NCBI RefSeq assembly: GCF_024718545.1
Contig: NZ_JAMXDB010000013.1
Span: 1-38,872 of the forward strand
Source of the DNA: Weissella fangxianensis
GTDB taxonomy: Bacteria > Bacillota > Bacilli > Lactobacillales > Lactobacillaceae
Length of the DNA stretch: 38,872 nucleotides
Reading direction: 5' to 3'
This document shows positions 17,942 to 37,877 of this stretch, piece after piece. Both the position numbers and the translations under genes were made by a program. The notes below the pieces were generated by a model. That model was not told the origin of the DNA. It ran no database searches and saw only the letters and a list, made by a program, of their open reading frames with translations. Each line of letters opens with the position of its first letter. Position 1 is the stretch's first letter.

Positions 17942-19075
17942 CTAATTTCCCCAAACTTCTTGCGCTGTATCAACAACCAGTCGAATTTTATCCCACTGTT
18001 GTTGTTCAGTCAGTTGGTTACCTTCTTCAGTTGAAGCAAAACCACATTGCGTACTTAATGACAAGTTCTCTAAGGGAACGTACTGAGTTGCTTCGTCAAT
18101 TCGTTGCAGCAATGTTTCCTTAGTTTCCAGTTCCGGTTGTTTGCTAGTAACCAGTCCCAAAACTACCTGTGTGCCTGCTGGTACTTCAGCTAATGGTGCA
18201 AAATCACCTGAGCGTTAATCATCGAATTCTAGGTAGAAAGCATCCACTTTTTCTTGTGCAAACAAGTGGCCCGCAACTGGTGCATAACCTCCTTTAGCGG
18301 CCCACGTAGAATGATAATTACCACGACAAATGTGGGTACTAATGCGCAAATCTGATGGTAAGTCCGTAATGGCTGCATTATTCAATGTTAAGTAAAGGTC
18401 TTGTAAGGCATCCCGGTTAAACTCACCATTGGTCATTTCTTGCCAAAAATCACCATCGACTACCATGCCCCAAGTACAATCATCAATCTTCACATCACGA
18501 CAACCCGCATCAAATAATGCCAAAATCAAATCATGATACGCTTTACCAATATCTTGTACTAACTCCTCTTGATTAGGATAGTACTTTTGCAGAGCAGCTT
18601 CATTTTCGGCACCACGCGCTAACTCAGCATAAAATTGGGCAGGTTATGGAATACTCTGTCGTGCAGTCACCCCTGGTTGATCCTTTACTAATTCATTTAG
18701 AAAATTAAAAGCTTTCAAATCATGATGTTCTGGATTAAAAGCAATCTTACCCACTACCTGAGCAGAATCGTTTCTGGTCTCTTCATCATGGAACAAATAG
18801 CCATGATTAGCATATGTGTGTTCGATACCAGAAAATCCCCAGAAAGTGTCTAGATGCCAGTAACTACGTCTAAATTCACCGTCGGTCACAATTTTCAAGC
18901 CAGCGTCAATTTCCTTAGCGACCAAATCACGAATTGCTTCATCTTCAACTGCCATTAATTGTTCTTGACTAATCTTATTTGCTGCACAATCTGCACGAGC
19001 TTTTTTCACTGTTTCAGGTCGCAAAAAGCTGCCGACAATATCGTAATGTAATTTTGTTGCTGTTAATGTTGCCAT
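17942..19075 (-). pseudogene. MetE-like (YxjG/YxjH type) methionine synthase, broken by two in-frame stops
   Basis: The intact gene would encode about 377 aa resembling the single-domain cobalamin-independent methionine synthases that transfer a methyl group to homocysteine. One continuous frame reads from MATLTATKLHYDIVGSFLRP to the end, but TAA codons interrupt it at 18644-18646 (where the family has Ser in IPxPAQFY) and at 18215-18217 (where an acidic residue precedes RSGDF). Each needs only one base change. Zinc-site residues HIC, the following Glu in LEFDD and Cys in TQCGF are still present, so decay is recent. It sits behind an intact promoter and a Met-type T-box, and needs checking as a possible assembly error. 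Confidence 0.9.
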
Positions 19076-19138: not shown

Positions 19139-19436
19139 TAAAAAAGTCCCTAGAGCACAAAAACTTTCTTGTGCTCTAGGGACGTGATGTTAATTGTTCA
19201 CGTGGTACCACCCAAATTTGGTATTACCTTTTAAATAATACCCTCAGCAGGTACACTAATACTAGCTATACCTGTCCGCGATAACGGGCGAACCCGCAAA
19301 CAGCTCATATAACATTTAATAAACTCACTGTTTGTCTGCACTCCAAGACCATCTTCATCGACGCTTCTTTACCACCTTTCACCCTATGTGGTTCTCTGTC
19401 AAAAAGTCGCTAATCAATTACTCATCTTTTCTCAGC
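19139..19436 (-). promoter_or_regulatory. T-box leader, methionine type
   Basis: Transcribed on the minus strand ahead of the metE-like gene. The 3' part has the conserved T-box bulge in GGGTGGTACCACG (about 19201-19215), followed by a terminator hairpin GTCCCTAGAGCACA/TGTGCTCTAGGGAC and TTTTTT (19139-19184). The 5' part forms stem I, with the AGTA-containing base near 19415 and an ATG specifier candidate at 19350-19352 before GTCTTGGAGTG. Uncharged tRNA-Met would stabilise the antiterminator, so expression rises on methionine shortage. The leader looks complete even though its gene is broken. Confidence 0.88.
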
Positions 19437-19458
19437 AAAAACTAATTAATTTACATAA

Positions 19459-24034: not shown

Positions 24035-24095
24035 GATAATTGTCTCCCTCTAATTATTCTGCTGATAATCAATCGTTTGATTACCTATTCACAAA

Positions 24096-24124
24096 ATAAT
24101 TGTAACCGTTTTCAAAAAATTGAA
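24096..24124 (-). promoter_or_regulatory. Candidate promoter of the first GPH-GH127 operon
   Basis: TTCAAT (24119-24124), 17 bp, AATTAT (24096-24101); an overlapping alternative is TTTTTC, 17 bp, TACAAT (24099-24104). Either is weak, consistent with a need for an activator bound at 24147-24162. Confidence 0.4.
24101..24114. promoter_or_regulatory. cre site (CcpA) in the first GPH-GH127 promoter
   Basis: TGTAACCGTTTTCA fits the cre consensus TGNAANCGNTNNCA at every defined position and overlaps the candidate promoter, so CcpA should repress when a preferred sugar is present. Confidence 0.8.
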
Positions 24125-24146
24125 AAAGATTTATAATTGCACATAA

Positions 24147-24162
24147 GGTAATCATTTCCGAC
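24147..24162 (+). promoter_or_regulatory. AraC-regulator operator candidate, cassette 1 copy a
   Basis: GGTAATCATTTCCGAC, one of four 16-bp copies in the window (others at 24249, 36828, 36880). It lies about 22 bp upstream of the candidate -35 of the GPH gene, a normal position for an AraC-family activator. Confidence 0.6.
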
Positions 24163-24248
24163 TACTTTAAATTTCAGGTACATTAAGTGAATAATTTACT
24201 ATCATAGTATTATATACAGAAATATCGTGAAGTTCATATACGATATAA

Positions 24249-24264
24249 AGTGACTATTTCCGAC
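24249..24264 (+). promoter_or_regulatory. AraC-regulator operator candidate, cassette 1 copy b
   Basis: AGTGACTATTTCCGAC, 102 bp downstream of copy a, ending 23 bp before the araC-type start codon. The position suggests autoregulation or looping with copy a. Confidence 0.6.
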
Positions 24265-24287
24265 TTTTTAAATTGAGGTGAGATTTT

Positions 24288-25265
24288 ATGCTTTTCTCTA
24301 CATTTACGCTAGACAAGACCATGTTATTTTATAAAGGTGGTGAATTCATTAGCAACCAGCATTGGCAACACAAGCAAATGTTCCACCAAGGTGATTATGA
24401 AATAATTATTTGCATTGAAGGCCCCATTTACTTAGAAATTGAACAGCAACAGGTAATACTTCAGGCTCATGATGTCTTAGTCATTCCACCATTCACCCAC
24501 TTTGGAGGTTTTCGTAAAAGTGATGATCCTGTTGATTTTTACTGGTTTCACTTCTTTTCACAGTACAAAGAAAAAATATTTACCAGTACAGTCACAAAAT
24601 TAATCGACCACATGCAATCAGCGAAAGATACACACCAAAAAATTGCTTTACCGCAACACTTCACATTAGAAAATGATCAACAAATTTTGATTCTTGTACA
24701 TCAAATGTTATCAATAAATAATCAGTTATCCTACATCGATGAGCGTGATTACTTAACTTCAACGCTACTCATCTATTTATTTAAAGAATTCTTATCACAA
24801 AATCAAACTGATGAACGTTCGAAAATTAATTATATTAAGGAATGGATACGTGTTAATATCTCCGCAACATTATCTGTTGCAGAGATATCTACCCATGTCC
24901 ATTTAAACCCAGATTACCTAACCCGATTATTTAAAAAATATACGGGGATGACAACGTTGCAATATCTGAATCATCTAAAAATTGAAGTTGCTTCATTATT
25001 ATTAATCCGAACAGAAATGTCGATTAAGCAAATTGCAGCAGCTGCTTATTTTACCGATCCGAAAATATTCGCACATAAATTCAAAGCGACGACCAATCTG
25101 TCACCTACCGATTACCGAAAAGCTTATCGGCTAGTTCATCAAAATAATCCGCATATTGATCCACAAATTCCAATTCCCAAACGTATTGAAGATATACTTG
25201 ACTATATTCCAGAAAATGGTAATTTGCCTGATAATAATGCACATACCAAAAGGAGTACCCAATAA
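24288..25265 (+). CDS. AraC-family transcriptional regulator (first copy)
   Basis: A 325-aa regulator with an N-terminal cupin-like sensor domain (about 1-150; GPIYLEIEQQQVILQAHDVLVIPP) and a C-terminal pair of helix-turn-helix motifs (about 185-285; LSVAEISTHVHLNPDYLTRLF and MSIKQIAAAAYFTDPKIFAHKF). Divergent from the GPH-GH127 operon, which it probably activates when an arabinofuranoside-derived ligand is bound. SD TTGAGGTGAG. Its TAA overlaps the ATG of a small membrane protein by one base. Paralogue of 36924-37877. Confidence 0.93.
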   Translation: MLFSTFTLDKTMLFYKGGEFISNQHWQHKQMFHQGDYEIIICIEGPIYLEIEQQQVILQAHDVLVIPPFTHFGGFRKSDDPVDFYWFHFFSQYKEKIFTSTVTKLIDHMQSAKDTHQKIALPQHFTLENDQQILILVHQMLSINNQLSYIDERDYLTSTLLIYLFKEFLSQNQTDERSKINYIKEWIRVNISATLSVAEISTHVHLNPDYLTRLFKKYTGMTTLQYLNHLKIEVASLLLIRTEMSIKQIAAAAYFTDPKIFAHKFKATTNLSPTDYRKAYRLVHQNNPHIDPQIPIPKRIEDILDYIPENGNLPDNNAHTKRSTQ

Positions 25266-25465
25266 TGAAACTGTTCAATAAAATTTTCGCCGGCCAATCA
25301 CTTATCTCATGGTTTTTACAAATCGCCCTCATTTACTTAGCTTGGGCAGTTGCTGATCATAAGATAGTTAACAATCTTTATACAATCAGTGGCGCCGCCA
25401 TCATGTTAATTCTAATTTACTTAAGCCTGGCACATGATAATCGCCATCGCCAGTCAAAAAAATAA
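25265..25465 (+). CDS. Small two-helix membrane protein coupled to the AraC gene
   Basis: A 66-aa protein with two predicted membrane segments (about 12-31 and 41-57) and a basic C-terminal tail RHRQSKK. Its start codon overlaps the regulator's stop (TAATG), and AAAGGAG inside the araC end provides the SD, so translation is almost certainly coupled. I do not recognise a family. No equivalent follows the second AraC gene. A role with the regulator or the GPH transporter is only suggested by position. Confidence 0.8.
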   Translation: MKLFNKIFAGQSLISWFLQIALIYLAWAVADHKIVNNLYTISGAAIMLILIYLSLAHDNRHRQSKK

Positions 25466-25475
25466 TAATGGTAAC

Positions 25476-25535
25476 AAAAAACACATGTGTTAGATTTGTC
25501 TCACTGGACAGTATTATCTAACTCATGTGTTTTTA
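25476..25535. terminator. Bidirectional terminator between small membrane gene and argH
   Basis: AAAAACACATGTGTTAGAT and ATCTAACTCATGTGTTTTT arms with a 20-nt loop, between convergent transcripts. Confidence 0.9.
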
Positions 25536-25552
25536 TTAGCATCATTCCCCAG

Positions 25553-26926
25553 CTAACTTTTTTGTGCTTGTTTAATCTGATACTTCACCTGTTCGAAGCC
25601 AGTCGATCCCAAAGAAATTCGCCGAGCGACCGCATTTTCTGGGTCAAGTACGCCATAAACGTCGTCTGCTATCAATGGCTCAAATTCTTGTAACTGTGTT
25701 AATGACATTTTTTGTAAGGGTAAGTTATTGGCAATCCCGTAATGGACTAACTTGCCAACCACCTGATGCGCTTGTCTAAACGGTAACCCTTTGTCAGCTA
25801 AATAATCTGCCAACTCGGTCGCATTCGAAAAATCATCCTGCAATGAAGCTGATAATTTATCTGATTTCACTTGAATAGTTGCCAACATTTCCGTAAACAA
25901 TGAGACACAAGCTTTCACCGTGTCAATCGTATCAAAAACGCCTTCCTTATCCTCTTGTAAATCTTTGTCATAAGCTAACGGCAACCCTTTTAGAGTCGTC
26001 AACAACGAAAACAATGAGCCATAGACCCGGCCAGTTTTTCCGCGAATCAATTCAGCAACATCTGGATTTTTCTTTTGTGGCATGATTGAACTACCGGTAG
26101 CAAATTCATCACTAATTTCAATATACCCGAACTCATAAGAATTCCACTGAATAATCTCTTCACAGAAACGACTTAAATGCATCATTAAAGTCGCTGCAGC
26201 GTGTAGGAAGTCTAACAGGTAATCCCTGTCAGAAACAGCATCAATTGAATTTTGATAATTGCCCGCAAAGCCCAATTCTTGTGCACTATCCTCCCGATCG
26301 ATTGGGAAAGTCGTCCCTGCTAAAGCAGCTGCTCCCAAGGGTGATTGATTTGTGCTGTGGTAAGCTGTTTCAAATCTTTGCTTATCACGAGTAAACATTT
26401 CATAATATGCCATTAAATAGTGAGCGTATGAAATAGGTTGGGCATGTTGCAAATGCGTATAACCTGCCATCAGTGTGTTTACGTTAGCGTCAGCCTTTGT
26501 CACCACGACGTTTAGCAAATCGTCTAGTAATGCAATGATTTGTACCGTTTCATCTTTCATAAACAAATGCATATCAGTGGCTGTTTGATCATTACGGCTA
26601 CGTGCTGTATGTAGCTTACCAGCAACATCCCCAATCTCTTGTTGTAACAAATGCTCGATATTCATATGGATATCTTCGAAAGTATCAGAAAAAGTTAACT
26701 CTCCCTCAGTTAATTTTTTCAATAACTTTTCCAATCCGCCAGCAATTTGCGCACCTTCCGTTTCGGAAAGTATCTTGGTATGCGTCAACATTTTTGCATG
26801 GGCAATTGAACCTTTCAAATCATGTTTTGCTAAACGTTGGTCAAAGGAAATTGATGCATTAAAAGCGACGACATCTGCACTATTTCCTTTTTCAAAACGG
26901 CCACCCCACATTTGATTTGTTGCCAT
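25553..26926 (-). CDS. argH: Argininosuccinate lyase
   Basis: Splits argininosuccinate into arginine and fumarate, the last step of arginine synthesis. The 457-aa protein belongs to the fumarase/aspartase superfamily; the signature [12 protein letters not shown] with the flexible catalytic loop is present, as are HTARSRNDQ and TGYTHLQ-like [10 protein letters not shown]. It starts 15 bp after the argG stop, so argG-argH form an operon. Confidence 0.97.
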
Positions 26927-26941
26927 TATTTTGCCTACTTT

Positions 26942-28165
26942 CTACTTTAAAATAACTTTTTCTGCATCTGCTAATTTTTGTTGCACTTGCGCATGCACAA
27001 CTGAAGGCAAGCTATATAGCTTGATGAATCCGGCAGCTGATTCCTGATCAAAATCATCAGCTGACGTGTATGTTGCCAAATCTAGACTATATAGTGAATT
27101 CTTTGATTGACGACCTTCACAAATCACATTACCTTTAAACAACTTGACACGGACCACACCATTCACTTCTTTTTGGCTTTCATCAATAAATGCCTTTAAT
27201 GAATCAAACAAAGGTGTATACCACAAAGCATTGTAAATTGTATCAGCAATTTCTTTTTCAATAATTGGTTTGAAATGGGCAAGATCCTTAGTCGTCGTCA
27301 AATCTTCCAAATCTTTATGGGCTTTTAGTAACACCTCTGCACCTGGTGCTTCATAAACTTCACGTGACTTAATACCAATCAAACGATTTTCAACATGATC
27401 AATCCGCCCAATACCATGTTTACCTGCCACCTGGTTTAATTCTTTAATTAAATCGGCTAGGGCATATTCTTCCCCATTAATGGCAACTGGCACACCTTGT
27501 TCGAAGGCAATTTCAACATAGTCCGGTTCATCTGGCGTATTTTCCAAAGCAGTTGTACGCTCATACGCGTCTTCAGGTGCTGTGGCCCATGGGTCCTCCA
27601 AAACACCACATTCATTCGCACGTCCCCAAAGATTTTCATCAATTGAATATGGGCTTGCGGTTGTAATTGGAACTGGAATACCATTTTCTTTAGCATAGGC
27701 GATTTCCATTTCACGCGACATGTGTTGATCACGAATAGGATCTTCAATTTTCATCTCAGGTGCTAAGGCATGGATTTCTGTTTCAAAACGGACTTGGTCG
27801 TTTCCCTTACCCGTGCAACCATGGGCAATCGCAGTTGCCCCATATTGCTTAGCAACGTCAAATAACTTCTTGGCAATCAAAGGTCGTGACAATGCTGAAA
27901 TTAATGGATACTCCCCTTCATAATAAGCATGAGCTTGTAAGGCAACTAATGCATACTTCTCCGCAAATTCTTGTTGTGCATCAATGACAACTGATTCAAT
28001 AGCACCAACTTGCTTACCTTTGGCTTGAATCTTATCTAAATCTTTTTCTTCGCCAACATCAATACAACATGCAATCACATCATAACCAGCATTTTTTAAC
28101 CAGGCAATCTCGACTGACGTATCTAAACCACCAGAATAAGCTAAAACAACTTTCTCATTACTCAT
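26942..28165 (-). CDS. argG: Argininosuccinate synthase
   Basis: Joins citrulline and aspartate using ATP to form argininosuccinate. The 407-aa protein begins with the N-type ATP pyrophosphatase motif [14 protein letters not shown] and has [14 protein letters not shown], both diagnostic. SD AGAGAGGGAAT before the ATG. No other arginine genes are in the window, so citrulline must come from elsewhere (e.g. the ADI pathway or an unlinked arg cluster). The promoter region has ARG-box-like TGAATA elements. Confidence 0.97.
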
Positions 28166-28195
28166 AACAATTCCCTCTCTTTGAACGTTTTATAA

Positions 28196-28224
28196 ATAAT
28201 AGTATAAATATACATTAAATGCAA
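28196..28224 (-). promoter_or_regulatory. argGH promoter
   Basis: TTGCAT (28219-28224), 17 bp, TATTAT (28196-28201) on the minus strand. Confidence 0.7.
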
Positions 28225-28237
28225 CTCTTTTTGCCTT

Positions 28238-28268
28238 TTATTCATAAGTAAAGCGTATATTCACTTTA
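28238..28268 (-). promoter_or_regulatory. ARG-box-like half sites upstream of argGH
   Basis: Minus strand reads AAAGTGAATATACG and CTTATGAATAAAAG, two TGAATA half sites about 20 bp apart, just upstream of the -35 box. ArgR/AhrC boxes have TNTGAATWWWWATTCANW; these are partial matches, so ArgR control is likely but not proven. Confidence 0.45.
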
Positions 28269-28287
28269 TAATGCATATTACAACTAA

Positions 28288-28323
28288 TAAAAAAGACTAC
28301 CGAACATCGTCAGCAGTCTTTTG
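28288..28323 (-). terminator. Terminator of the SemiSWEET gene
   Basis: Minus strand AAAAGACT, 17-nt loop, AGTCTTTTTT. Confidence 0.75.
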
Positions 28324-28345
28324 TCTCTATTAATTATATTCAAAT

Positions 28346-28663
28346 TTAATGAACGTATATTGTAATGATAGTCACAATACCTAAGAATACGCCTGGTACA
28401 TTTGATATCACTAATGGCCAATCTCGGTATTTTTTTAACCATCCATATCCAGCCCACAGTATGGCATCTAACATCATAGTTAGTGGCTGAACAAGGGGTA
28501 CTGGATTGCCAGCAAGGTTGCTTTGAATTTCGGTTATATACGATAAATACATGAGCACACACATAATGGTTGCTAATATACTAATCAACCTCACAATAGT
28601 AACCCTACTACTTACATCAATAAAGCGCCGTCTGTCACTAGATTTATCGGTTCCGCTGTCCAT
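28346..28663 (-). CDS. SemiSWEET-type small sugar transporter (MtN3/PQ-loop family)
   Basis: A 105-aa protein with three membrane helices, matching the bacterial half-transporters that dimerise to carry mono- or disaccharides by facilitated diffusion. Visible family features: MYLSYITEIQSNLAG (PQ-type position, with TE in place of PQ), then VQPLTMMLDAILWAGYGWLKKYRDWPLVISNVPGVFLG-like blocks with the conserved Asn before VPG. The N-terminal 20 residues are charged and atypical; AGGAGG is about 15 nt from the ATG, so the start is uncertain. Single gene with promoter at 28710-28737. Confidence 0.85.
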   Translation of the reverse strand: MDSGTDKSSDRRRFIDVSSRVTIVRLISILATIMCVLMYLSYITEIQSNLAGNPVPLVQPLTMMLDAILWAGYGWLKKYRDWPLVISNVPGVFLGIVTIITIYVH

Positions 28664-28709
28664 TTTTCTTGTTTATTGCCTCCTAAAGCTAAAAGTATGT
28701 CCGACATAT

Positions 28710-28737
28710 ATGATAGTCGCATTTAGATATTATGCAA
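28710..28737 (-). promoter_or_regulatory. Candidate SemiSWEET promoter
   Basis: TTGCAT (28732-28737), 16 bp, TATCAT (28710-28715), minus strand. Confidence 0.5.
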
Positions 28738-28798
28738 GGGTTAATTTTTTTAAATGTTATTTACTTATGACAGGATGTTAATATGTACATTTTATATA

Positions 28799-28835
28799 CA
28801 AAAAAGTAGCCAAACTCATAATGAGTTTGGCTACT
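28799..28835 (-). terminator. Terminator of gntP
   Basis: Perfect 14-bp stem AGTAGCCAAACTCA/TGAGTTTGGCTACT followed on the minus strand by TTTTT. Confidence 0.92.
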
Positions 28836-28877
28836 GCACGATTTAAATAATCAGTTAATTTTCTATTGCTTAAATAA

Positions 28878-30209
28878 TTATACAAACAATGATAGTAATA
28901 GCACTGAACCTAATCCGGCAAGTGCCAGAACACTAGTTAGCGTTGTCCAAGATAACAACGTTTCCTTTAATGACAAACCAAAATATTCTTTGATCATCCA
29001 GAAACCAGCATCATTAACATGATCAGCGAATACTGAACCGGCACCAATCGCCAAAACAATCAAAGCTGGATTAACTGAAGAACTAGCAACCAATGGTGCA
29101 ATCAATCCCGCAGCTGTAATTCCAGAAACCGTTGAAGATCCCAAACTAACACGTAGTACAGCGGTAATCAACCAAGCAGCGATGATTGGTGACATTGATG
29201 TGTTAGCAAATAGTGCTGAAACATAATCTGAAATACCACCTTCAATCAATACTTCCTTAAGAGCACCACCACCACCAATAATTAATAGCATCATGGCAAT
29301 TTGCTTAATTGATTCCGTTAACGTATTACCAATTTCTGACATTTTAACGCCACGTAAAATACCCATTGTAAATAATGCAAAGAGTAGCGACAGTAGCATT
29401 GCCATATCGGGACTACCAATAAAACCAACGATTTGACCAATAACTGATTTATTAGCCAAGAATGGATCTAATATCGTTGCAATCCCAATTAAAATAACTG
29501 GCATCATTGACGTTAAAATACTGATACCAAAGCCAGGTGTTTCCTCAATTGCAAATGTTTTAAATTCACCAAAAACATTTGGTGTTTCCTTATGATAGGC
29601 ACTTGGATAAACCTTCTTCAGTACCATATTAAAAATTGGTCCCGCAATGATAATCGTTGGAATCGCTGCAATAATACCAAGCAACAACACTTGACCAATA
29701 CTTGCATCAAACACACCTGCAACGGCAGTTGGTGCTGGATGTGGTGGTAAAAATGCATGTGCGGTATTCAAAGTTGCAGCCATTGGAATTCCTAAGTAAA
29801 GCAATGGCACGTTCAACTCTTTAGCAATTACAAACAAAATTGGTAGTAGGACAACTAACCCAACTTCGAAGAACAACGCAATACCAACAATAAATGAAGC
29901 TAGAATGATCGCAATTTGAATCTGCTTACGGCCAAACTTCTGAATTAGTGTATGCGCAATTCGATAACCACCACCAGTATCAGAAACAAGTTTTCCAATC
30001 ATTGATCCTAAACCGAAAACAATGGCTAAGTGACCAAGTTGGCCGCCAATACCGGTTTCGATAGCTGGTCCAATTTTATCAACTGGAATTCCTAATACTA
30101 GAGCTAAAAAGACAGCGGTTACTAACAATGAGACATATGTATTTAATTTAAATTTCACAATAAGTAAAATCAATAAAACAATGCCTACCGATACCCAAAA
30201 CAATGGCAT
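28878..30209 (-). CDS. gntP: GntP-family gluconate:H+ symporter
   Basis: A 443-aa integral membrane permease, about twelve hydrophobic segments, that imports gluconate or a related sugar acid with protons. Family motifs include GLGSMIGKLVSDTGGGYRIA, ALFFEVGLVVLLPI, TAHAFLPPHPAPTAVA and ADHVNDAGFWMIKEYF, all typical of GntP. No gluconate kinase is adjacent. A perfect cre lies about 50 bp upstream of the start. Confidence 0.93.
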   Translation of the reverse strand: MPLFWVSVGIVLLILLIVKFKLNTYVSLLVTAVFLALVLGIPVDKIGPAIETGIGGQLGHLAIVFGLGSMIGKLVSDTGGGYRIAHTLIQKFGRKQIQIAIILASFIVGIALFFEVGLVVLLPILFVIAKELNVPLLYLGIPMAATLNTAHAFLPPHPAPTAVAGVFDASIGQVLLLGIIAAIPTIIIAGPIFNMVLKKVYPSAYHKETPNVFGEFKTFAIEETPGFGISILTSMMPVILIGIATILDPFLANKSVIGQIVGFIGSPDMAMLLSLLFALFTMGILRGVKMSEIGNTLTESIKQIAMMLLIIGGGGALKEVLIEGGISDYVSALFANTSMSPIIAAWLITAVLRVSLGSSTVSGITAAGLIAPLVASSSVNPALIVLAIGAGSVFADHVNDAGFWMIKEYFGLSLKETLLSWTTLTSVLALAGLGSVLLLSLFV

Positions 30210-30249
30210 AATAAAATCTCCCTATAAAATAAACATAATAAAATCTATC

Positions 30250-30262
30250 ACTATCATAGTGT
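30250..30262. promoter_or_regulatory. 13-bp palindrome in the gntP promoter
   Basis: CACTATCATAGTG, directly abutting the cre; it contains a TATGAT -10 candidate on the minus strand and could be a specific operator. Confidence 0.35.
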
Positions 30263-30273
30263 AACCGTTTACA
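30260..30273. promoter_or_regulatory. cre site upstream of gntP
   Basis: TGTAACCGTTTACA matches the cre consensus at every defined position, implying catabolite repression by CcpA. Confidence 0.85.
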
Positions 30274-30373
30274 TTACTATTAGCTAGTACTTTAACGTTC
30301 CATTATGGGACAACTATGTTCCGTCATTTATTGACTAAAAACTTGACATATTATTAATTATTATTTTCATCAT

Positions 30374-30410
30374 AAAAAAGTGGTCTGATTCTATCATCAG
30401 ACCACTTTTT
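30374..30410. terminator. Terminator after the LPXTG gene fragment
   Basis: AAAAAGTGGTCTGAT and ATCAGACCACTTTTT with a 6-nt loop. Confidence 0.9.
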
Positions 30411-30455
30411 CTATGGGGCAAAGCTTAATTTTGCTTGTGTATATCCTGTCACATA

Positions 30456-31229
30456 TTAATTTTTATTGTCACGCTTCTTACCTTTTCCACCTGTTGTGCC
30501 CAATAAACTAGCTAATAATACAACTAGCATTGCTATTGTTCCCTGTTTTTCATCAATTGACTGAACACCAGTATTTGGTAGTTTTACATTATCTGGTTTA
30601 TGAACTTGATTATTGTGATCAATAGCATGTGATGATGGTTGCTTTTCATCCTCAGTTACATGAATAACTGTTTTGGCACCAGTCTCTGCATGTTGATATG
30701 GATATGAATTTGGCTCCGTCACATGACCATAATTCGTACCAGGTACGTGTTGTTTATCAATTTTCTCCTTTCCTTCACTCAATATTGTATTAACCTCGTC
30801 AGCGTTTTTTGCTTCATCAATTGCCTGCAAAGCGTGCTGTACAGCAACATCAACGGCATGCTTCTGTTTTGATTTTTCGGATACAGTAAGCGATTCATCA
30901 TTGTCAATATCATGCTTAATTTTATTACCTTCAGCAATGATATCCACCTTAGCTTGGTCTTTTTGCTTATCAACGTTTTGGCCAGCTTGATGCCGTGCCT
31001 TAATCGTATTGACACCAACTATCGTTACTTGTTGAATATCATCAACAGCTTGTGCACGATCTATTCTTTGATTTGCTAAAAGTACTTCCTGATCAACTGC
31101 TGCCTTTTGACCTTGCTTTTGCTTAGCAGTTAATGTTGGATCGTTATCGATAGCCAACTTTGTCTCATTGGCCGTTACTTGAATTTTATCTTTAGCAAGC
31201 GCCTTTTGCTTATTAATACTCATCCCCAC
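30456..31229 (-). pseudogene. C-terminal part of a DUF1542-repeat, LPXTG-anchored surface protein
   Basis: 257 codons covering two DUF1542-type repeats (about 8-82 and 86-165, each with the pattern AIDNDPTLTAKQKQ / DIDNDESLTVSEKSK), a Pro/His-rich wall spacer, and a sorting signal: LPNTG at about 217-221, hydrophobic segment, tail KGKKRDNKN. The sortase would link it to the wall. There is no signal peptide, and the frame continues upstream only to a stop near 31283, so this is the 3' end of a once much larger gene. An out-of-frame start with SD GAGGTG, giving MNKKASLLR, lies at about 31291 and could be the relic of the original 5' end. Confidence 0.85.
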
Positions 31230-31362
31230 TTGATGTTGCTTAGCAATAATATAATCACTATTAACGTAACAAGCTGGCCTTTTTATTCATCTTTCAACAC
31301 CTCAATAAGTTTGTTTGCTACAACTATTGTGATAGCCTTTCCTAGCTAAATAATTAAGTTGC

Positions 31363-31734
31363 TCATGTCCATCCCTCACCTTTCTTCTGTTCTTTATCTA
31401 TATCATCCGCAATTACAAAGGTTCTACCTAGTACTTTATCCTGATTACGATCCTTATACTGAATAGTCATGCTTTGCTGTTGATTGCTTAGTACAGCTGA
31501 CACAGTATTAATTTCCAAATTTCCTGAACCATCCACAAAAGATGGGACTAATGTTGCGGGTAACTCATCTGCCATTAAAATGTAGCTACTCATTTCTGAT
31601 ACTTCTACCACACGTACCCGCTTATACACCCAACCAGGCCATCGCAATAACCACAATAAATCACTAACTAATGACTCTTCTAAGGTCATTACTTTTTTAT
31701 TGCTCGGCAACCAATTTGGCATTGTTTCTTTCAT
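31363..31734 (-). CDS. Hypothetical protein, translationally coupled to the upstream gene
   Basis: 123 aa from MKETMPNWLPSN. I do not recognise it. A hydrophobic, Trp-rich stretch LLWLLRWPGWVY lies near residue 30, the rest is soluble, ending KKGEGWT. A frame extends to 31755, but the ATG at 31734 overlaps the preceding gene's stop as ATGA, with AGGAGG 10 nt upstream. Its own stop overlaps another ATG (ATGA) that opens a 6-codon frame MSNLII*, which continues after the stop for about 20 more codons, possibly a decayed small gene. Confidence 0.6.
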   Translation of the reverse strand: MKETMPNWLPSNKKVMTLEESLVSDLLWLLRWPGWVYKRVRVVEVSEMSSYILMADELPATLVPSFVDGSGNLEINTVSAVLSNQQQSMTIQYKDRNQDKVLGRTFVIADDIDKEQKKGEGWT

Positions 31735-32062
31735 TCGTATTTTGCCTCCTGCCAATTTTTATCTGGTTTCAAAAACCTAATTAGTTGCTGGTTTGCCACA
31801 AATATTCGGCCATAATAATCATCTTCCTCTGAGTAGACATCCCAAATGATGAATTCATATTCATTTGCATCAGCTGCTATGTAAGTTACCCTAATACAAT
31901 TCTCTTTATCATCCGATAAAAATTGTGAAAGGCCCGCAACATCCAATTCTTCCAAATAAAAAACACTGATTCCATTGGATAGAAATCAGTGATTTTAATT
32001 ATTGGATTCATTTTTGAAACTTGACTAATTAAGGCTTCAGTTAGCGACCGCATCTTATTCAT
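31731..32062 (-). pseudogene. Hypothetical protein, frameshifted in an A6 run
   Basis: Two frames belong together: MNKMRSLTEALISQVSKMN...ITDFYPMESVF from the ATG at 32062 (SD AGGTGG), and then LEELDVAGLSQFLSDDKEN...KNWQEAKYE ending at 31731. They are out of register at the homopolymer 31958-31963 (T6 on the coding strand); removing two T or adding one base joins them into about 110 aa. The acidic protein resembles no family I know. The stop overlaps the next gene's ATG. Confidence 0.55.
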
Positions 32063-32117
32063 GATGAGCCACCTGCCATTTTTCTACGACTAGATTATTA
32101 TGTACTTCTTGTGCTTG

Positions 32118-32441
32118 TTAAGCTGTTAGTCCGAATGTCCGCCCAGATTCATCTACACCTAAAACAACTATACCTGTTCCCACCTGTGGTAACAGAGCCA
32201 TTCCAAAGTATTCATCACCAAACTGAATACGATAGGCACTTGCCATACCGGTTGCTAATGCATCATCTCTAACCCAGGCATCATACCCTATTCTGCCATT
32301 CTTTGCTGGACGTAATCCGATGACATCAACTGCTCCTTCAAATATCTTATATAGTTTGTCATTATTTTTACTACCTGACCATTCTGTAATCGTTGGTACG
32401 ACATACTGGCCAATCATATCGTATACTACTGTATTATTCAT
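32118..32441 (-). CDS. Hypothetical protein
   Basis: 107 aa starting MNNTVVYDMIGQYVVPTIT. GGAG lies 9 nt before the ATG at 32441; the longer frame to 32483 lacks an SD. No signal peptide or membrane segment. The C-terminal half YFGMALLPQVGTGIVVLG is beta-like. It heads a run of small minus-strand genes (32441 to 31363) before the LPXTG fragment. Immunity-type or phage-remnant genes are possible, but I have no motif to support either. Confidence 0.6.
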   Translation of the reverse strand: MNNTVVYDMIGQYVVPTITEWSGSKNNDKLYKIFEGAVDVIGLRPAKNGRIGYDAWVRDDALATGMASAYRIQFGDEYFGMALLPQVGTGIVVLGVDESGRTFGLTA

Positions 32442-32483
32442 TGTCTGTTTCTCCAATACCAAATATTTTTTCGATAGCTTCAT

Positions 32484-32795
32484 GCTGTCATAATTAAAAT
32501 ATATATTTGATATTTTGATTCAAACTAATTCTTAAAAAATATCACCAATACCATTTGATGAATTTAGTATTAGGAACCACTCTAATATTAGTTGTTTAAT
32601 TGAGTTTTGTCGCTGCCTCTCTAATGTTAATATGTTGGACGAACAACTCAAAAAGCAACCAAATTCATGAAGAATTAAGTTGCCTCATATTCAAGTCGGG
32701 TATCGTGGACCAAAAAGCCTAAGGTCCTCAGTTATTCTATATTAATGTTTTAGGTTTAGTAAAGTGGGATCAAATTTGCAAAGTAATTTTTTAAA
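32484..32795. other. Gene-free AT-rich gap
   Basis: 312 bp without a convincing gene on either strand. It contains a terminator at 32649-32683 and a small GGACC/GGTCC stem at about 32708-32728. Probably decayed sequence. Confidence 0.5.
32649..32683 (-). terminator. Terminator-like hairpin
   Basis: Minus strand GCAACTTAATTC, loop TTCAT, GAATTTGGTTGC, then TTTTTG. It lies about 110 bp after the decayed frame ending at 32796. Confidence 0.65.
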
Positions 32796-33194
32796 CTAAG
32801 ATTCAGCCTTAATTCGAATCATATTCCAAGAAAGTGAATTAAGTTTTGTATAAGCTTTAATGTCACTAACAGATATATTTTTCAAAGTTTGCAGGTTCAT
32901 AGACTGATCTTCATTTATCTGATGTATATTATATCCAGCAAATTAGGTTTCTTATAGCTGGCTTGTCTCAATACTATGCCAAGCTAAATCTAAACGAACT
33001 AGACAACGTTCTTTCTGACCCATTATCATCTTGACAATTATACTCTGAAACAAATTCCCTTCCAGGAAAACAAATAAGTAGTATCTCCATTTTTTTACAG
33101 CTTCAATAATATCTATTCGAAATCCATTTTCATCAGACATGTTGTGTCCAGGCTGATAAATTCTACGTCTCAAATGTTCCATAAAAGGCTCCAT
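32796..33194 (-). pseudogene. Unknown protein, broken by two close in-frame TAA codons
   Basis: A single frame of about 132 codons from MEPFMEHLRRRIYQPGHNMS to ...WNMIRIKAES, stop at 32796. It is interrupted at ...HSIETSQL*ET*FAGYNIHQ, two TAA codons three codons apart near 32950. The middle (EAVKKWRYYLFVFLEGN, CLVRLDLAWHSI) looks like a folded soluble domain. Not recognised. No clear promoter. Confidence 0.5.
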
Positions 33195-33287
33195 ATTCTG
33201 GAAACTATTTCAGATAGTTAATTTGCTAAATTAACTGATAATGTTGATTTAATATCGCCCCCTTTCCATGCCATTACCTGTCTCATA

Positions 33288-35255
33288 TCATTTTTCATTT
33301 AGCCACACACGCATTTGTCCATTTTCTCGATTAGCCCATGCATAGTATGGAATTAGTCTCATATCGACAGAATTTTCCTCTTGAGTAGTTGCTTCCCTAT
33401 AAAGCGGCGTGCCATCCTTCTCCAACGTCTCTTTAGTTGCTGCAATTTGTATTATTCCTACACCATTACCATTAAAGAGGCTATCATTAAACTTATAAGT
33501 AGTTTCTGCATTTGGTGTCACTTTATACAACCACAAAGGTGCGGAATTATCAACTTCTTCTGCCGCATAGACAATTGGCCCACGTTGAATAGCCAATTTA
33601 CCAAAATCACTTGCGACACGATTACTTGCTTTCATGACTTTTACTTCCATGTCTAGATCTAAGTCAATCGTAGTTGAATCACTAATCTCAATGTAAATAA
33701 ATCCATCTACTACTGGATGACGTACTTTTCGGCCATTTTCACGGAAATCAAAATTTGTTGACCAACTAGGAATACGAATACCTAATGTAAATGGTATATG
33801 TCGTTCATCTTTGATTTCGTAATGAATATTTCCATCCCATGGAAAATTATTTGTTTGTGCTATCTTCACTTCGTCACCAAAAGTTGCTTCATTAGAAACA
33901 AACTGATGTGAAAGAATTACATTACCCTCAATGGTATACAAATATTGATCCAGTGAAGTAATTAACCTTGCCAGATTAGCTGGGCAGCACGCGCAACCAA
34001 ACCAATCAGCTCGATGAGTTAGTACATGCGACTTTCCAGGATTTCCTCTACTTGCAATAGGATCAGCTTCAAGTGGATTTACATAGAAAAAGTGTTTCCC
34101 GTCTAGAGACATACCACTTAATGCGCCATTAAAAAGTTCCTTTTCAAGAACATCACCATACTCACCCTTAGGCTCAATTTTTAGCATTTGTCGAGCAAAA
34201 AATGCCATACCAACTGAAGCACAAGTTTCCCCATACATAGTATCATTTGGCAAGTCATAATCATAGGTGAATGCTTCTCCTATTGTTGTAGACCCAATAT
34301 TACCAGTAATATACATTCTCCGACGCACAATATCTTTCCAGAATCTGTGACAGGCAGCTAATAATTCTTCATCGCCTGTAAATCGGGCTACATACGCCAT
34401 TCCAGTACATAAATAAACTACACGAACAGCATGCCCATCGGCTGTTTTTTGTTCAGAAATTGGTTCTGCAGCCTGGTAGTAGCTTCGCGGTAAGTCTCGC
34501 ATACCTGGTAAAATATCATTATCCCAACCATCGACCCTATCCTGTTCATCAAAAAATTCTGGATCTTTCCCACGTTCCTTTAAAAAGTATTTTGCTAATG
34601 CAAGATACTTTTTCTGTCCAGTCTGTTCGTAAAGTCGAGACAATGCAAGTTCTATTTCTGGATGGCCATCATATCCGGAAATTTTATTTTCATCATTTCC
34701 AAAGTTACTGTCAATACAATCAGCCATCCGAGTAGCAATTTCCAAAGAAAGTTCATTACCAGTCGATTGGTAATAGGCGACACCAGCTTCAATATAATGT
34801 CCCATTGTGTAGAGTTCATGAGATTGTTGCAACCTCTTAAACTTTCGTTCAGGTGCGTCAATTTGGAAATAAGTAGATAAATACCCATCATCGTCCTGCG
34901 CAGAGGCAATCAACTCAATTAAATTGTCAGTAATCTTCTGTAAATCTGGGTTTGGATGATAACTAAATGAATAGGCTGCTGCCTCTAACCACTTATACAC
35001 ATCAGTGTCTTGAAAGGGAAATCCATAATGGTGCCCCGTCATTTCTCCAGCCGCAATTTTTAAGTTTGCAACTGCATGACTATTTTTATCACGGCCATTA
35101 TTTTGAGGGTCAGCTGAAATTGCTACATTTGCAGTATCATTCATTACTTGCCATTGGTAAGGTAAAACTTCTTTTACGACAAGTTCCCGATAGTTATTCC
35201 AAAAATCTGAAGTAATATAAACTTCTTTAAGTTCTATTTTTTCTGCAGTTTCCAT
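33288..35255 (-). CDS. GH127 beta-L-arabinofuranosidase (second copy)
   Basis: A 655-aa paralogue of 20629-22599, clearly homologous over the full length (for example both share DPQNNG, TGHHYGFPFQDTDVYKWLEA and APERKFKRLQQSHELYTMGH). The active-site residues are present in NDTMYGETCASVGM and ADWFGCACCPANLARL. No signal peptide. It starts 35 bp after the GPH symporter stop, with AAAGG as SD. The C-terminal third differs more, so it may prefer a different linkage or leaving group. It appears intact even though its transporter is frameshifted. Confidence 0.93.
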   Translation of the reverse strand: METAEKIELKEVYITSDFWNNYRELVVKEVLPYQWQVMNDTANVAISADPQNNGRDKNSHAVANLKIAAGEMTGHHYGFPFQDTDVYKWLEAAAYSFSYHPNPDLQKITDNLIELIASAQDDDGYLSTYFQIDAPERKFKRLQQSHELYTMGHYIEAGVAYYQSTGNELSLEIATRMADCIDSNFGNDENKISGYDGHPEIELALSRLYEQTGQKKYLALAKYFLKERGKDPEFFDEQDRVDGWDNDILPGMRDLPRSYYQAAEPISEQKTADGHAVRVVYLCTGMAYVARFTGDEELLAACHRFWKDIVRRRMYITGNIGSTTIGEAFTYDYDLPNDTMYGETCASVGMAFFARQMLKIEPKGEYGDVLEKELFNGALSGMSLDGKHFFYVNPLEADPIASRGNPGKSHVLTHRADWFGCACCPANLARLITSLDQYLYTIEGNVILSHQFVSNEATFGDEVKIAQTNNFPWDGNIHYEIKDERHIPFTLGIRIPSWSTNFDFRENGRKVRHPVVDGFIYIEISDSTTIDLDLDMEVKVMKASNRVASDFGKLAIQRGPIVYAAEEVDNSAPLWLYKVTPNAETTYKFNDSLFNGNGVGIIQIAATKETLEKDGTPLYREATTQEENSVDMRLIPYYAWANRENGQMRVWLNEK

Positions 35256-35289
35256 TTTTTACCTTTCTGCATTTGTGATCGTTACATAA

Positions 35290-36698
35290 TTATTTTTCTT
35301 CTTGTGTTACAAGTCCATGCCGCTTATCTAAATCAGCTTTAACAACAGGTTCATTTTTCTCATACTTGATATAAAGTAACATAATGGCGGCTACAATGAT
35401 GTAAATAATAACCGGCAACCAAACGAAACAGAATCTAATGGATGCAAGAGAAGCGGTTGACTGTGTTTTATTTGCAACAAAGCCAGCGGCCGCCATAATC
35501 TTTGATGGAATAAAGCTTCCGAACCCGGAACCTAATTGAATACAAAATGCTGACCCAACAGCCGTTAAGAACCCAGAAGCCCGAATACCAGTTTTCCACT
35601 CACCAAAATCAACTGTATCAGCTAACATAGCAAATGGCATCGCACAGGCGATTGCAGCTCCTAAAGTACCAATAGTCCAAGCTGTGATAACTAGCGCAAA
35701 ATTATCACCCGCAAAAAAACCATAATCTGACCAAAAGCTCCAATAGCTAAACCAATTAACATTGTAATTGTTTTATTAGTAACTCTGACAATTAATGGAA
35801 TACAAATTGTAGCAAATAATCCCAAAATTCCAACGCCATTGAATATTGAAGTTAATTGTTCGTTTCCTAAATTGTATTTTGCATAATAAACAGCAATTCC
35901 ATTTCGATCAGACTGAGCAATCCAATAAATAACAAACGAAATAACTAAAATAAACCAAGGTTTATTACCTACAGTTGCCTTTAAGCTATCCTTAAAAGGT
36001 ATTGGCTTTGTAATAGCAACTGTTCGTTCTTTTAAGTGAGTAAAAGCATAAAACAACATTGCGATACCAATAATTCCAAATAACGCTGTAAGCCACATAA
36101 ATCCAACTTTGTCATTCCCTTTACCAAAGAATGCTATCAATGGTAATGCAAAACTACTAGTGATAAACGCTCCAATAGATCCTCCTGCCATTCTCCACGT
36201 ATTTGCACTAATTCTTTCAGCAGGATCTGAAGTAAGACTTGGTAAAATGGCCGTTATTGGTGTTTGAACACCTGTATAAATGACTCCAGCAGCCAAAATA
36301 TAAGTCACTCCCGCATAAATTAATTTAGCTGTACCGTGAAGATTTGGTGCAGTAAATGCTAAAAAAGTTGCTATCGCAAATGGTATCGCTAACCAAAGAA
36401 AGAAAGGACGACTTTGACCCCATTTTGTATGTGTGTGATCAACAATTGATCCCCAAATAGGGGCACTGATGGCATCAACAACTCTAGCAATTAATAGAAT
36501 CATACCAGCACCAGCAACTGATATTTCAAATACATCTGTATAAAAGTAAAGAATATAACTGGTAATTGTAACGTATAGTAGATTACCAGCCATATCAGTG
36601 AACGAATAACCAATTTTTTCTGAAATCGGCAGTTTAACATTAGCATGCTCTGGCGTTAACGCCTTTGTCGATTTTGTATGACTATCTATACTTTCCAT
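35290..36698 (-). pseudogene. GPH-family sugar:cation symporter (second copy), frameshifted
   Basis: Paralogue of 22619-24034. Helices 1-9 are read from 36698 (MESIDSHTKSTKALTPEHAN...) down to a stop at 35691; the rest (TAWTIGTLGAAIACAMPFAMLADTVDFGEW region onward) is in another frame. The two join perfectly if one T is added to the T7 run (A7 at 35713-35719 on the plus strand), giving 469 aa, close to the 471 of copy 1. It may be a true mutation, a slippery or phase-variable tract, or a sequencing indel. SD AAAGGAG. Confidence 0.9.
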
Positions 36699-36760
36699 TA
36701 TTCAATTCTCCTTTAGAGTTCAAAATACAAAGTAAAAATTCAAACAACTTTAGTGCACAT

Positions 36761-36774
36761 TGAAATTGTTTACA
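36761..36774. promoter_or_regulatory. cre-like site, cassette 2
   Basis: TGAAATTGTTTACA, one mismatch to TGNAANCGNTNNCA, just downstream of the candidate -10 of the second GPH gene. Confidence 0.5.
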
Positions 36775-36803
36775 TGTATATATTAAGCGCTTACATTTGT
36801 GAA
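36775..36803 (-). promoter_or_regulatory. Candidate promoter of the second GPH-GH127 operon
   Basis: TTCACA (36798-36803), 17 bp, TATACA (36775-36780), minus strand. The layout (operator, about 24 bp, -35, cre) repeats that of cassette 1. Confidence 0.45.
36782..36795. promoter_or_regulatory. cre-like site in the spacer of the second GPH promoter
   Basis: ATTAAGCGCTTACA; the right arm AAGCGCTTACA is a perfect cre arm, but the first two bases do not match. Confidence 0.5.
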
Positions 36804-36827
36804 AAAAAGTACTATAATATTATTAAT

Positions 36828-36843
36828 GGTATCTATTTACGAC
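36828..36843 (+). promoter_or_regulatory. AraC-regulator operator candidate, cassette 2 copy a
   Basis: GGTATCTATTTACGAC, about 24 bp upstream of the candidate -35 of the GPH gene; same orientation and position as copy a of cassette 1. Confidence 0.6.
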
Positions 36844-36879
36844 TCATTAATATCCTTTATGTTCAATAACCAAACATAA

Positions 36880-36895
36880 GGTATCTATTTACGAC
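36880..36895 (+). promoter_or_regulatory. AraC-regulator operator candidate, cassette 2 copy b
   Basis: GGTATCTATTTACGAC, identical to copy a and 52 bp from it, ending 28 bp before the AraC-gene start codon. Confidence 0.6.
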
Positions 36896-36923: not shown

Positions 36924-37877
36924 ATGAAGTTTTTTTCGTTCACACTTGAAAAGCCAGTTTTATATTATATGGGCGGGGAATTCCAAGTAACAGAACCCTG
37001 GCAACATCGTTCTTTGTATCATAAAGGAGATTATGAAATAATTTTTTGTATAAAGGGGCCAATGTATATGCAAGTTGGCAATCACAAATATAATATAGAA
37101 TCTAATCAAGTTTTGATTGTTCCGCCATTTACTACATACTGTGGATATAAAACAAGCCCTAATGGGGCAGATTTCTACTGGTTGCATTTCTTTCCCCAAG
37201 AGAAAGTTTCCATTATAGAGGCACATGAAGACGATATAATCAATAAATTAAAAACAAACGAATCACGTAATAATAGTGTGACGCTACCAATTATTTTTAA
37301 TTTACCCGATTACGAGGATATTATTGTTACCATTCATAAAATCCTATCTACAAAGAAAAAAATCACATTTATGGAAAAACGTGATTTTTTAACTTCAGCT
37401 CTTCTAGTTGAATTGTTCGATGCTTATGTCACACAAAATACCTCAGATAATAAGGATGACAAGATTAAATATATAAAAGAGTGGATTCGTGCCAATATGT
37501 CTAACGAACTAAATGTTGAAAATGTTGCTAAAAATATAAATTTAAATAGAGATTACCTAACAAGAATTTTTAAGGAGAATACAGGAATGACCGTATTTCA
37601 ATACATTAACAAGCAACGAATTGACGTGGCATCCACTCTTTTAGTTAGGACTGAAATGTCAATCAAAGAGATAGCTTATAACTCTTATTTTACTAACTCT
37701 AAAATGTTAATGCGTCGTTTTAAAAAAGAAACCGGTTTATCACCTAATGAGTACCGTAGATTGTATAGCAATATCCACTTAAATAACAATCATATTGACC
37801 CGTTCATCCCAATACCATCACGAATTGCTGATTCAATTACTGAAACTGTCGATGCCAAATTTAAATTTTTATATTAG
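36924..37877 (+). CDS. AraC-family transcriptional regulator (second copy)
   Basis: A 317-aa paralogue of 24288-25265. Cupin-like N-terminal part (GPMYMQVGNHKYNIESNQVLIVPP) and C-terminal double HTH (LNVENVAKNINLNRDYLTRIF; MSIKEIAYNSYFTNSKMLMRRF). Divergent from the second GPH-GH127 operon. SD AAGGAG. Coding is more AT-rich than copy 1, with more AGA and ATA codons, suggesting a different origin rather than recent duplication. It lacks the downstream membrane gene of copy 1; IS debris begins about 40 bp after its stop. Confidence 0.92.
   Translation: MKFFSFTLEKPVLYYMGGEFQVTEPWQHRSLYHKGDYEIIFCIKGPMYMQVGNHKYNIESNQVLIVPPFTTYCGYKTSPNGADFYWLHFFPQEKVSIIEAHEDDIINKLKTNESRNNSVTLPIIFNLPDYEDIIVTIHKILSTKKKITFMEKRDFLTSALLVELFDAYVTQNTSDNKDDKIKYIKEWIRANMSNELNVENVAKNINLNRDYLTRIFKENTGMTVFQYINKQRIDVASTLLVRTEMSIKEIAYNSYFTNSKMLMRRFKKETGLSPNEYRRLYSNIHLNNNHIDPFIPIPSRIADSITETVDAKFKFLY

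Follow-up and report, generated by a model that had tools for sequence, protein, structure and literature searches.

A 38,872-nucleotide stretch of Weissella fangxianensis DNA (contig NZ_JAMXDB010000013.1; hereafter the window) contains two paralogous cassettes in which a gene encoding an AraC-family regulator, on the plus strand, is separated by an intergenic gap from genes encoding a GPH-family transporter and a GH127-family glycoside hydrolase, both on the minus strand. Each gap contains repeated copies of a 16-bp motif. Our data suggest that these copies are probably operators of the adjacent AraC-family regulator, embedded in a stereotyped divergent promoter at which the regulator would activate the GPH and GH127 genes in a class-I manner while restraining araC.

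The four copies lie on the plus strand at 24147..24162 (GGTAATCATTTCCGAC, the distal operator of cassette 1), 24249..24264 (AGTGACTATTTCCGAC, the proximal operator of cassette 1, with the araC start codon 39 bp further on), 36828..36843 (GGTATCTATTTACGAC, the distal operator of cassette 2) and 36880..36895 (GGTATCTATTTACGAC again, the proximal operator of cassette 2, with the araC start codon 44 bp further on). These are the coordinates given in an earlier note on this DNA, and all four copies match, with no mismatches, the pattern that the note had proposed, RGTRWYYATTTMCGAC, although that pattern merges two variants that track regulator type. When up to two mismatches were allowed, the window contained six matches, compared with a mean of 0.85 and a maximum of 3 in 100 shuffled versions. 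One match with two mismatches, at 23673, was rejected because it lies inside GPH coding sequence and is altered in the orthologue from genome G023. Across the 77 contigs of the genome (1.97 Mb), exact matches are limited to the window's four copies, and allowing one mismatch added only 3 matches, versus 10 for a backwards control at equal tolerance. A weight matrix built from 87 sites, all from other genomes, and scored on both strands of the window placed the four copies at ranks 1 to 4 of all positions (24.7, 24.3, 16.9 and 16.9), with the next-best score, 10.7, falling within GPH coding sequence. In 100 Markov-1 windows, the best score per window averaged 11.7 and reached at most 20.75, such that either cassette 2 site alone (16.9) falls within the range of best scores from chance windows.

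The DNA around the copies has diverged, as the earlier note had stated: the two gaps, 253 and 225 bp long, share 140 identical positions, versus 135.5 (standard deviation 4.0) after shuffling, and outside the sites their likeness is no greater than that of shuffled DNA. The possibility that the copies are functionless remnants of cassette duplication, or chance, is therefore very remote; the cassettes are indeed paralogous (the AraC proteins are 43% identical), but the gaps are otherwise dissimilar, and several genera have kept the sites at fixed distances.

To survey related loci, we searched 397 Lactobacillaceae genomes with the cassette 2 regulator (P0002) at E <= 1e-60, scoring up to five candidates per genome, and obtained 54 matches in 40 genomes and 10 genera. 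A site on the same strand, with no more than three mismatches to GGTRAYYATTTCCGAC and within 500 bp upstream of araC, was present at 36 of the 37 relatives that are 43% or more identical to P0002 (in one of these 36, G371_C51, the match is merely cre-like) and, by the same criterion, at none of the 17 more distant relatives (41% identity or less). Using sequence and layout together, we assigned a distal site in 34 of the 37 loci. Two copies per gap, which the earlier note had described, holds for both gaps in the window and is not general, since 23 of these 34 loci have distal, middle and proximal copies. GPH lies upstream on the opposite strand in 32 of the 34; the two exceptions are G195, for which just 419 bp of upstream DNA is available, and G280, where the 1500 bp examined include GH127 and lack GPH. 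Altogether, 91 sites define a 16-bp motif of 21.7 bits, approximately RGTGAYNATTTCCGAC, whose copies in AraC-GPH gaps share one orientation, lie on the araC strand in constrained places, and are conserved across genera. The recurrence of the sites beside close AraC relatives in several genera, and their absence beside distant ones, is what would be expected of conserved operators of this AraC subfamily, as the earlier note had predicted.

A search of the genome_contigs collection for the two-copy pattern gave 18 hits, and all 6 that came from Lactobacillaceae adjoin a close AraC relative. The other 12 (2 from Mycobacterium, 1 each from Ferrovum, Halomonas, Cohnella and Paenibacillus, and 6 from Lachnospiraceae/Eubacterium/Clostridia assemblies) lack an adjacent close relative. 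Among them are locus L092, in which an AraC-family open reading frame (ORF) is 21% identical, and L094 from Paenibacillus taihuensis, in which an AraC-family ORF is 26% and a GH127-like ORF 24% identical; the 3' end of the latter ORF adjoins the repeat. We treated these as unrelated. A plasmid search for AraC relatives returned one match, at 27%.

The sites occupy a fixed position relative to the predicted promoters. On the GPH side of cassette 1, a cre-like box (TGAAAACGGTTACA, 24101..24114, minus strand) matches the cre consensus, TGWAANCGNTNWCA, without mismatch, and the likely GPH1 -10 hexamer, TACAAT (24099..24104, minus strand), is a consensus match only. The corresponding elements of cassette 2 are a cre-like box with two mismatches (TGTAAGCGCTTAAT, 36782..36795, minus strand) and a likely -10 hexamer, TAATAT (36780..36785, minus strand), assigned by its shared offset and unreported by the consensus scan. 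Both gaps thus carry a cre-like box at the GPH promoter that is a candidate for CcpA binding. On the plus strand, the likely araC promoters are TTTTCA-N17-TATAAT (24109..24137), in which the hexamer position is common to relatives, and CTTACA-N17-TATAAT (36790..36818), each matching the consensus at 10 of 12 bases. Towards GPH, the distal site begins 48 bp before the cre-like box (start to start), and the end of this box overlaps the GPH -10 hexamer (TACAAT, TACTAT or similar). When 40 genomes were scanned with a layout pattern of operator-N30-34-cre, in which the spacer was free to vary from 30 to 34, we found 24 matches in 22 genomes, compared with 1 for a reversed control, and the spacer was 32 in 22 of the matches and 31 in the other 2. 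With the GPH -10 hexamer set at -12 to -7, the distal site spans -70 to -55 and is centred at about -62.5. On the opposite strand, TATAA for araC is found at a fixed offset in 31 of 33 loci (a count that leaves out G167, which is one base short). In both gaps, nine bases separate the araC TATAAT from the distal site, so that this site, near +4 relative to araC, immediately follows the likely araC start and is also upstream of the GPH promoter. The predicted araC leader contains the proximal copy, as well as the middle copy at most loci. Relative to the predicted hexamers, therefore, the distal site has the placement of a class-I activator site, upstream of the -35 region and at a fixed distance from the -10. 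Between the GPH1 -10 hexamer and start codon, a separate sequence, TTTGATTACCTATTCACAAA (24066-24094), is identical in the three species compared; its reverse complement has GGTAATCA in common with the distal operator, which could reflect a half-site or chance.

Based on this arrangement, we propose that an inducer, probably an arabinoside or a breakdown product of one, would act through the AraC-family regulator, and that the inducer-bound regulator at the distal copy would activate GPH-GH127 in a class-I manner and simultaneously restrain araC. In the presence of a preferred sugar, CcpA would repress via the cre box. The proximal and, where present, middle copies would cooperate with the distal copy, perhaps through a DNA loop when inducer is absent, and the two cassettes would operate in parallel, each circuit having its own recognition sequence.

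Two of the 24 layout matches are located outside any AraC-GPH gap, and both keep the 48-bp layout. One, in Lentilactobacillus raoultii (genome G355, locus L134), consists of two operator copies 85 bp apart with a cre-like box (L134 3051-3151), upstream of a gene for a secreted GH39-like protein (L134 3489-6134; 882 aa). The protein resembles GH5/39-type chains of solved structure, 8uwt and 5u22 (E = 2.7e-56 and 3.2e-48) and has a DUF5776 domain, and its GH39 and CBM35 matches are below cutoff; the gene is likely a distant member of the regulon. The other match is in G001, a member of the window's own genus, in which araC lies at the opposite end of the cluster from GPH, and GPH retains a single site. 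In both cases, the copies lie on the strand opposite to their downstream gene and TTATA is missing from its usual offset. Retention of the layout where there is no divergent araC indicates that a role at the target is separable from autoregulation, which favours an activator.

This distinction matters for the strongest competing explanation, in which AraC is mainly a repressor that autoregulates and represses the divergent promoter (by looping, for example), with induction resulting from release. Such a repressor would account for the presence of the distal copy immediately after the likely araC -10 and of the proximal copy in the predicted leader, and the spacings between distal and proximal copies fit a helical period (p = 0.02). 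Nonetheless, the fixed placing relative to the GPH -10 hexamer, kept at two targets that have no adjacent divergent araC, suits an activator better, and we consider a predominantly repressing regulator unlikely. Less probable still is that a different regulator binds the sites, or that they function in the araC leader RNA. The link to the AraC subfamily would then be indirect, and the location of the proximal (and mostly also the middle) copy in the predicted leader would be compatible with an RNA element. The site variant tracks the AraC type, however, the gaps are without any Rfam match, and the L134 and G001 copies, being opposite in strand to their genes, are not araC leader elements.

Several observations weigh against class-I activation from conserved operators. 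The promoter matches are near chance expectation (4 versus 2.2 in shuffles for the araC1 region and 3 versus 2.0 for the araC2 region), several distal copies are weak (e.g., those of G346_C174 and G383) and were assigned by layout, and the araC -10 has clearly been lost in L134 alone, since a TATACT-like hexamer remains in G001 about three bases from the usual position. The araC gene of G001 has no upstream site, and G371_C51, whose AraC is 46% identical to P0002, has neither a convincing site nor GPH. Outside the family but within the same order, G542 encodes an AraC protein 49% identical to P0001 (the cassette 1 regulator) and has no motif and no adjacent GPH, and in G460 and G524, which belong to other families of that order and have AraC proteins with 37-41% identity, GPH and GH127 are present and the motif was not found. 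By eye, repeats resembling GTGGANTTTTTCG can be seen upstream of araC in G460 and G524 (loci L188 and L189), perhaps representing a diverged operator.

The earlier note had treated the four sites as a link between the cassettes. Instead, the sites fall into separate variants, TTTCCGAC in cassette 1 and TTTACGAC in cassette 2, which suggest two insulated circuits. Position 12 of the motif is C in 85 of the 91 sites (cassette 1 and most relatives), whereas in cassette 2 and two relatives with 73-74% identity it is A in 5 of 6 sites and G in the sixth; the displaced site in G001 also has A. At residue 257, in the DNA-binding domain of the regulator, all 29 C-type proteins compared have Asp and all 4 A-type proteins have Asn, and residues 223, 229 and 233 likewise separate the two types (this comparison omits G138 and G167, which have broken AraC frames, G371_C51, which lacks a convincing site, and G186, which has one site). 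In the alignment, residue 257 corresponds to the second Asp of the E. coli AraC sequence FDDQLYF, close to where the second recognition helix begins; Asp257 may simply cap the helix. A quick tree (omitting G138 and G167) groups three of the four A-type proteins in a single clade, with the remaining protein on a long branch whose placement is uncertain, consistent with a possible single Asn257/A12 event. A search for A-type regulators in the two genera with the most loci yielded none that were new. Three genomes (the window's own, G133 and G346) contain both variants, each beside its own type of regulator. It is possible, then, that the paralogous circuits are insulated, although residue 257 is not proven as a base contact. 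A more specific scenario, in which position 12 changed from C to A together with Asp257 to Asn, cross-talk ended, and spacing drifted mainly by helical turns that preserve an uninduced loop, is one that we put forward as tentative and, as a whole, rather doubtful.

Spacing between distal and proximal copies takes a limited set of values: 52, 63-64, 85, 102, 105, 108, 119, 128-130, 139-142 and 194 bp. Cassette 2 has a spacing of 52 bp, and its two closest relatives have 63 bp. The means of the ten spacing clusters fit a period of approximately 10.95 bp (p = 0.02, with the period free between 10.2 and 11.25), suggesting, short of proof, that the distal and proximal sites must lie on one side of the helix, as operators joined by a loop would. 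The spacing of 102 bp, found in cassette 1 and two orthologues, fits this period poorly.

The earlier note had anticipated that the motif would allow regulon prediction across the genome, but in the genome of W. fangxianensis the layout pattern matched the two gaps only. Hits to a single motif in other genomes were set aside: one or more matches to RGTRNYNATTTMCGAC occur in 116 of the 397 genomes. Among 50 loci that we inspected (a non-random set, of which 30 were returned automatically and 20 were chosen), most exact sites are inside ORFs. The sequence GGTGTTGATTTACGAC recurs in many genomes with similar surroundings; in some it is called coding, and in others it falls immediately beyond an ORF. 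Intergenic single sites were otherwise few (L104, L135 at 2785, L146, L148 and L153), and L134 is the only one of the 50 loci with two copies in one non-coding stretch away from AraC gaps.

The proposed promoter resembles that controlled by E. coli AraC, which binds half-sites (araI and araO) that are direct repeats of about 16-17 bp. As in that system, the regulator combines a cupin-like sensor with a double helix-turn-helix, the putative operators are same-orientation repeats of similar length, and a divergent sugar operon is associated with likely autoregulation and possible looping. The systems differ in that P0001 and P0002 fall far short of the AraC equivalog NF007860 (69.9 and 85.3 bits versus a cutoff of 208) and adjoin different genes, the operators are 45-194 bp apart with none adjoining the GPH -35, and a cre-like box takes the place of the CRP site. 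At class-I promoters of the MarA, SoxS and Rob type, the site for the AraC-family protein is centred around -60, beyond the -35 region, a position like that of the distal site here; MarA-type proteins, unlike the present regulators, have no sensor domain and no need of paired sites. Binding of direct repeats by AraC-type proteins has been attributed to a flexible linker (PMC9723621, consulted in part). Local sugar operons with a dedicated regulator are also a feature of the carbohydrate regulons of lactic acid bacteria reconstructed in RegPrecise (PMC3616900); in the portions of that paper considered here, AraC is named once in the main text, as a family count, and AraR and XylR are listed, and the regulon of the present AraC subfamily was not seen. 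The arabinose cluster of Weissella cibaria, according to the part of PMC7125115 that we consulted, has a GntR-type repressor and is a different system. A literature search, with most subscription journals outside its scope, found no description of such a site. On sequence grounds, then, this appears to be a conserved operator set for a known kind of regulator, ordinary in class and useful in its detail. It supplies a blueprint of operators and promoter, open to experimental test, for one subfamily of AraC-type sugar regulators of lactic acid bacteria, and genomes with both variants offer a ready system for studying how duplicated AraC circuits stay apart. Inducible expression in food bacteria is a further potential use of the compact divergent promoter, which combines a likely activator with likely autorepression and cre control.

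The regulators encoded beside the gaps, P0001 (325 aa; 24288..25265, plus strand) and P0002 (317 aa; 36924..37877, plus strand), both match Pfam HTH_18, HTH_AraC and AraC_binding. The C-terminal double helix-turn-helix is well matched (HTH_18, 73.6 and 75.2 bits versus a cutoff of 33.6), and the N-terminal AraC_binding/cupin sensor is barely over its cutoff (23.7 and 24.8 bits versus 21.1). The hydrolases, P0005 (20629..22599, minus strand) and P0006 (33288..35255, minus strand), contain the catalytic, middle and C-terminal domains of GH127 (Pfam PF07944, PF20736 and PF20737). The sole NCBIfam match of P0005 is to aceric acid hydrolase (396 bits, under the cutoff of 950). GH127 is a family assignment for both proteins, and their arabinofuranosidase activity is putative.

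The cassette 1 transporter (P0003; 22619..24034, minus strand) is a GPH-family sugar:cation symporter by NCBIfam TIGR00792 (365.7 bits, cutoff 231.35). Its cassette 2 counterpart is split over two ORFs in the interval 35290-36698 of the window: a first part, P0004 (335 aa; 35691..36698, minus strand), covers positions 1-309 of the 427-position MFS_2 profile, and a last part (116 aa; 35290..35640, minus strand) covers positions 335-423. Three close relatives have a single ORF of 459-471 aa, and other split or short GPH genes occur in G320 (L082), G167 (L052) and G018 (L067). Elsewhere in the window, a T-box leader (RF00230, 97.6 bits versus a cutoff of 93) is present at 19175-19442 on the minus strand, upstream of ORFs at about 18215-19075. 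Positions 1-125 match parts of seven Weissella plasmid records at 92-94% identity, some of which annotate the stretch as an IS3 family transposase, and this end of the contig is probably an insertion sequence.

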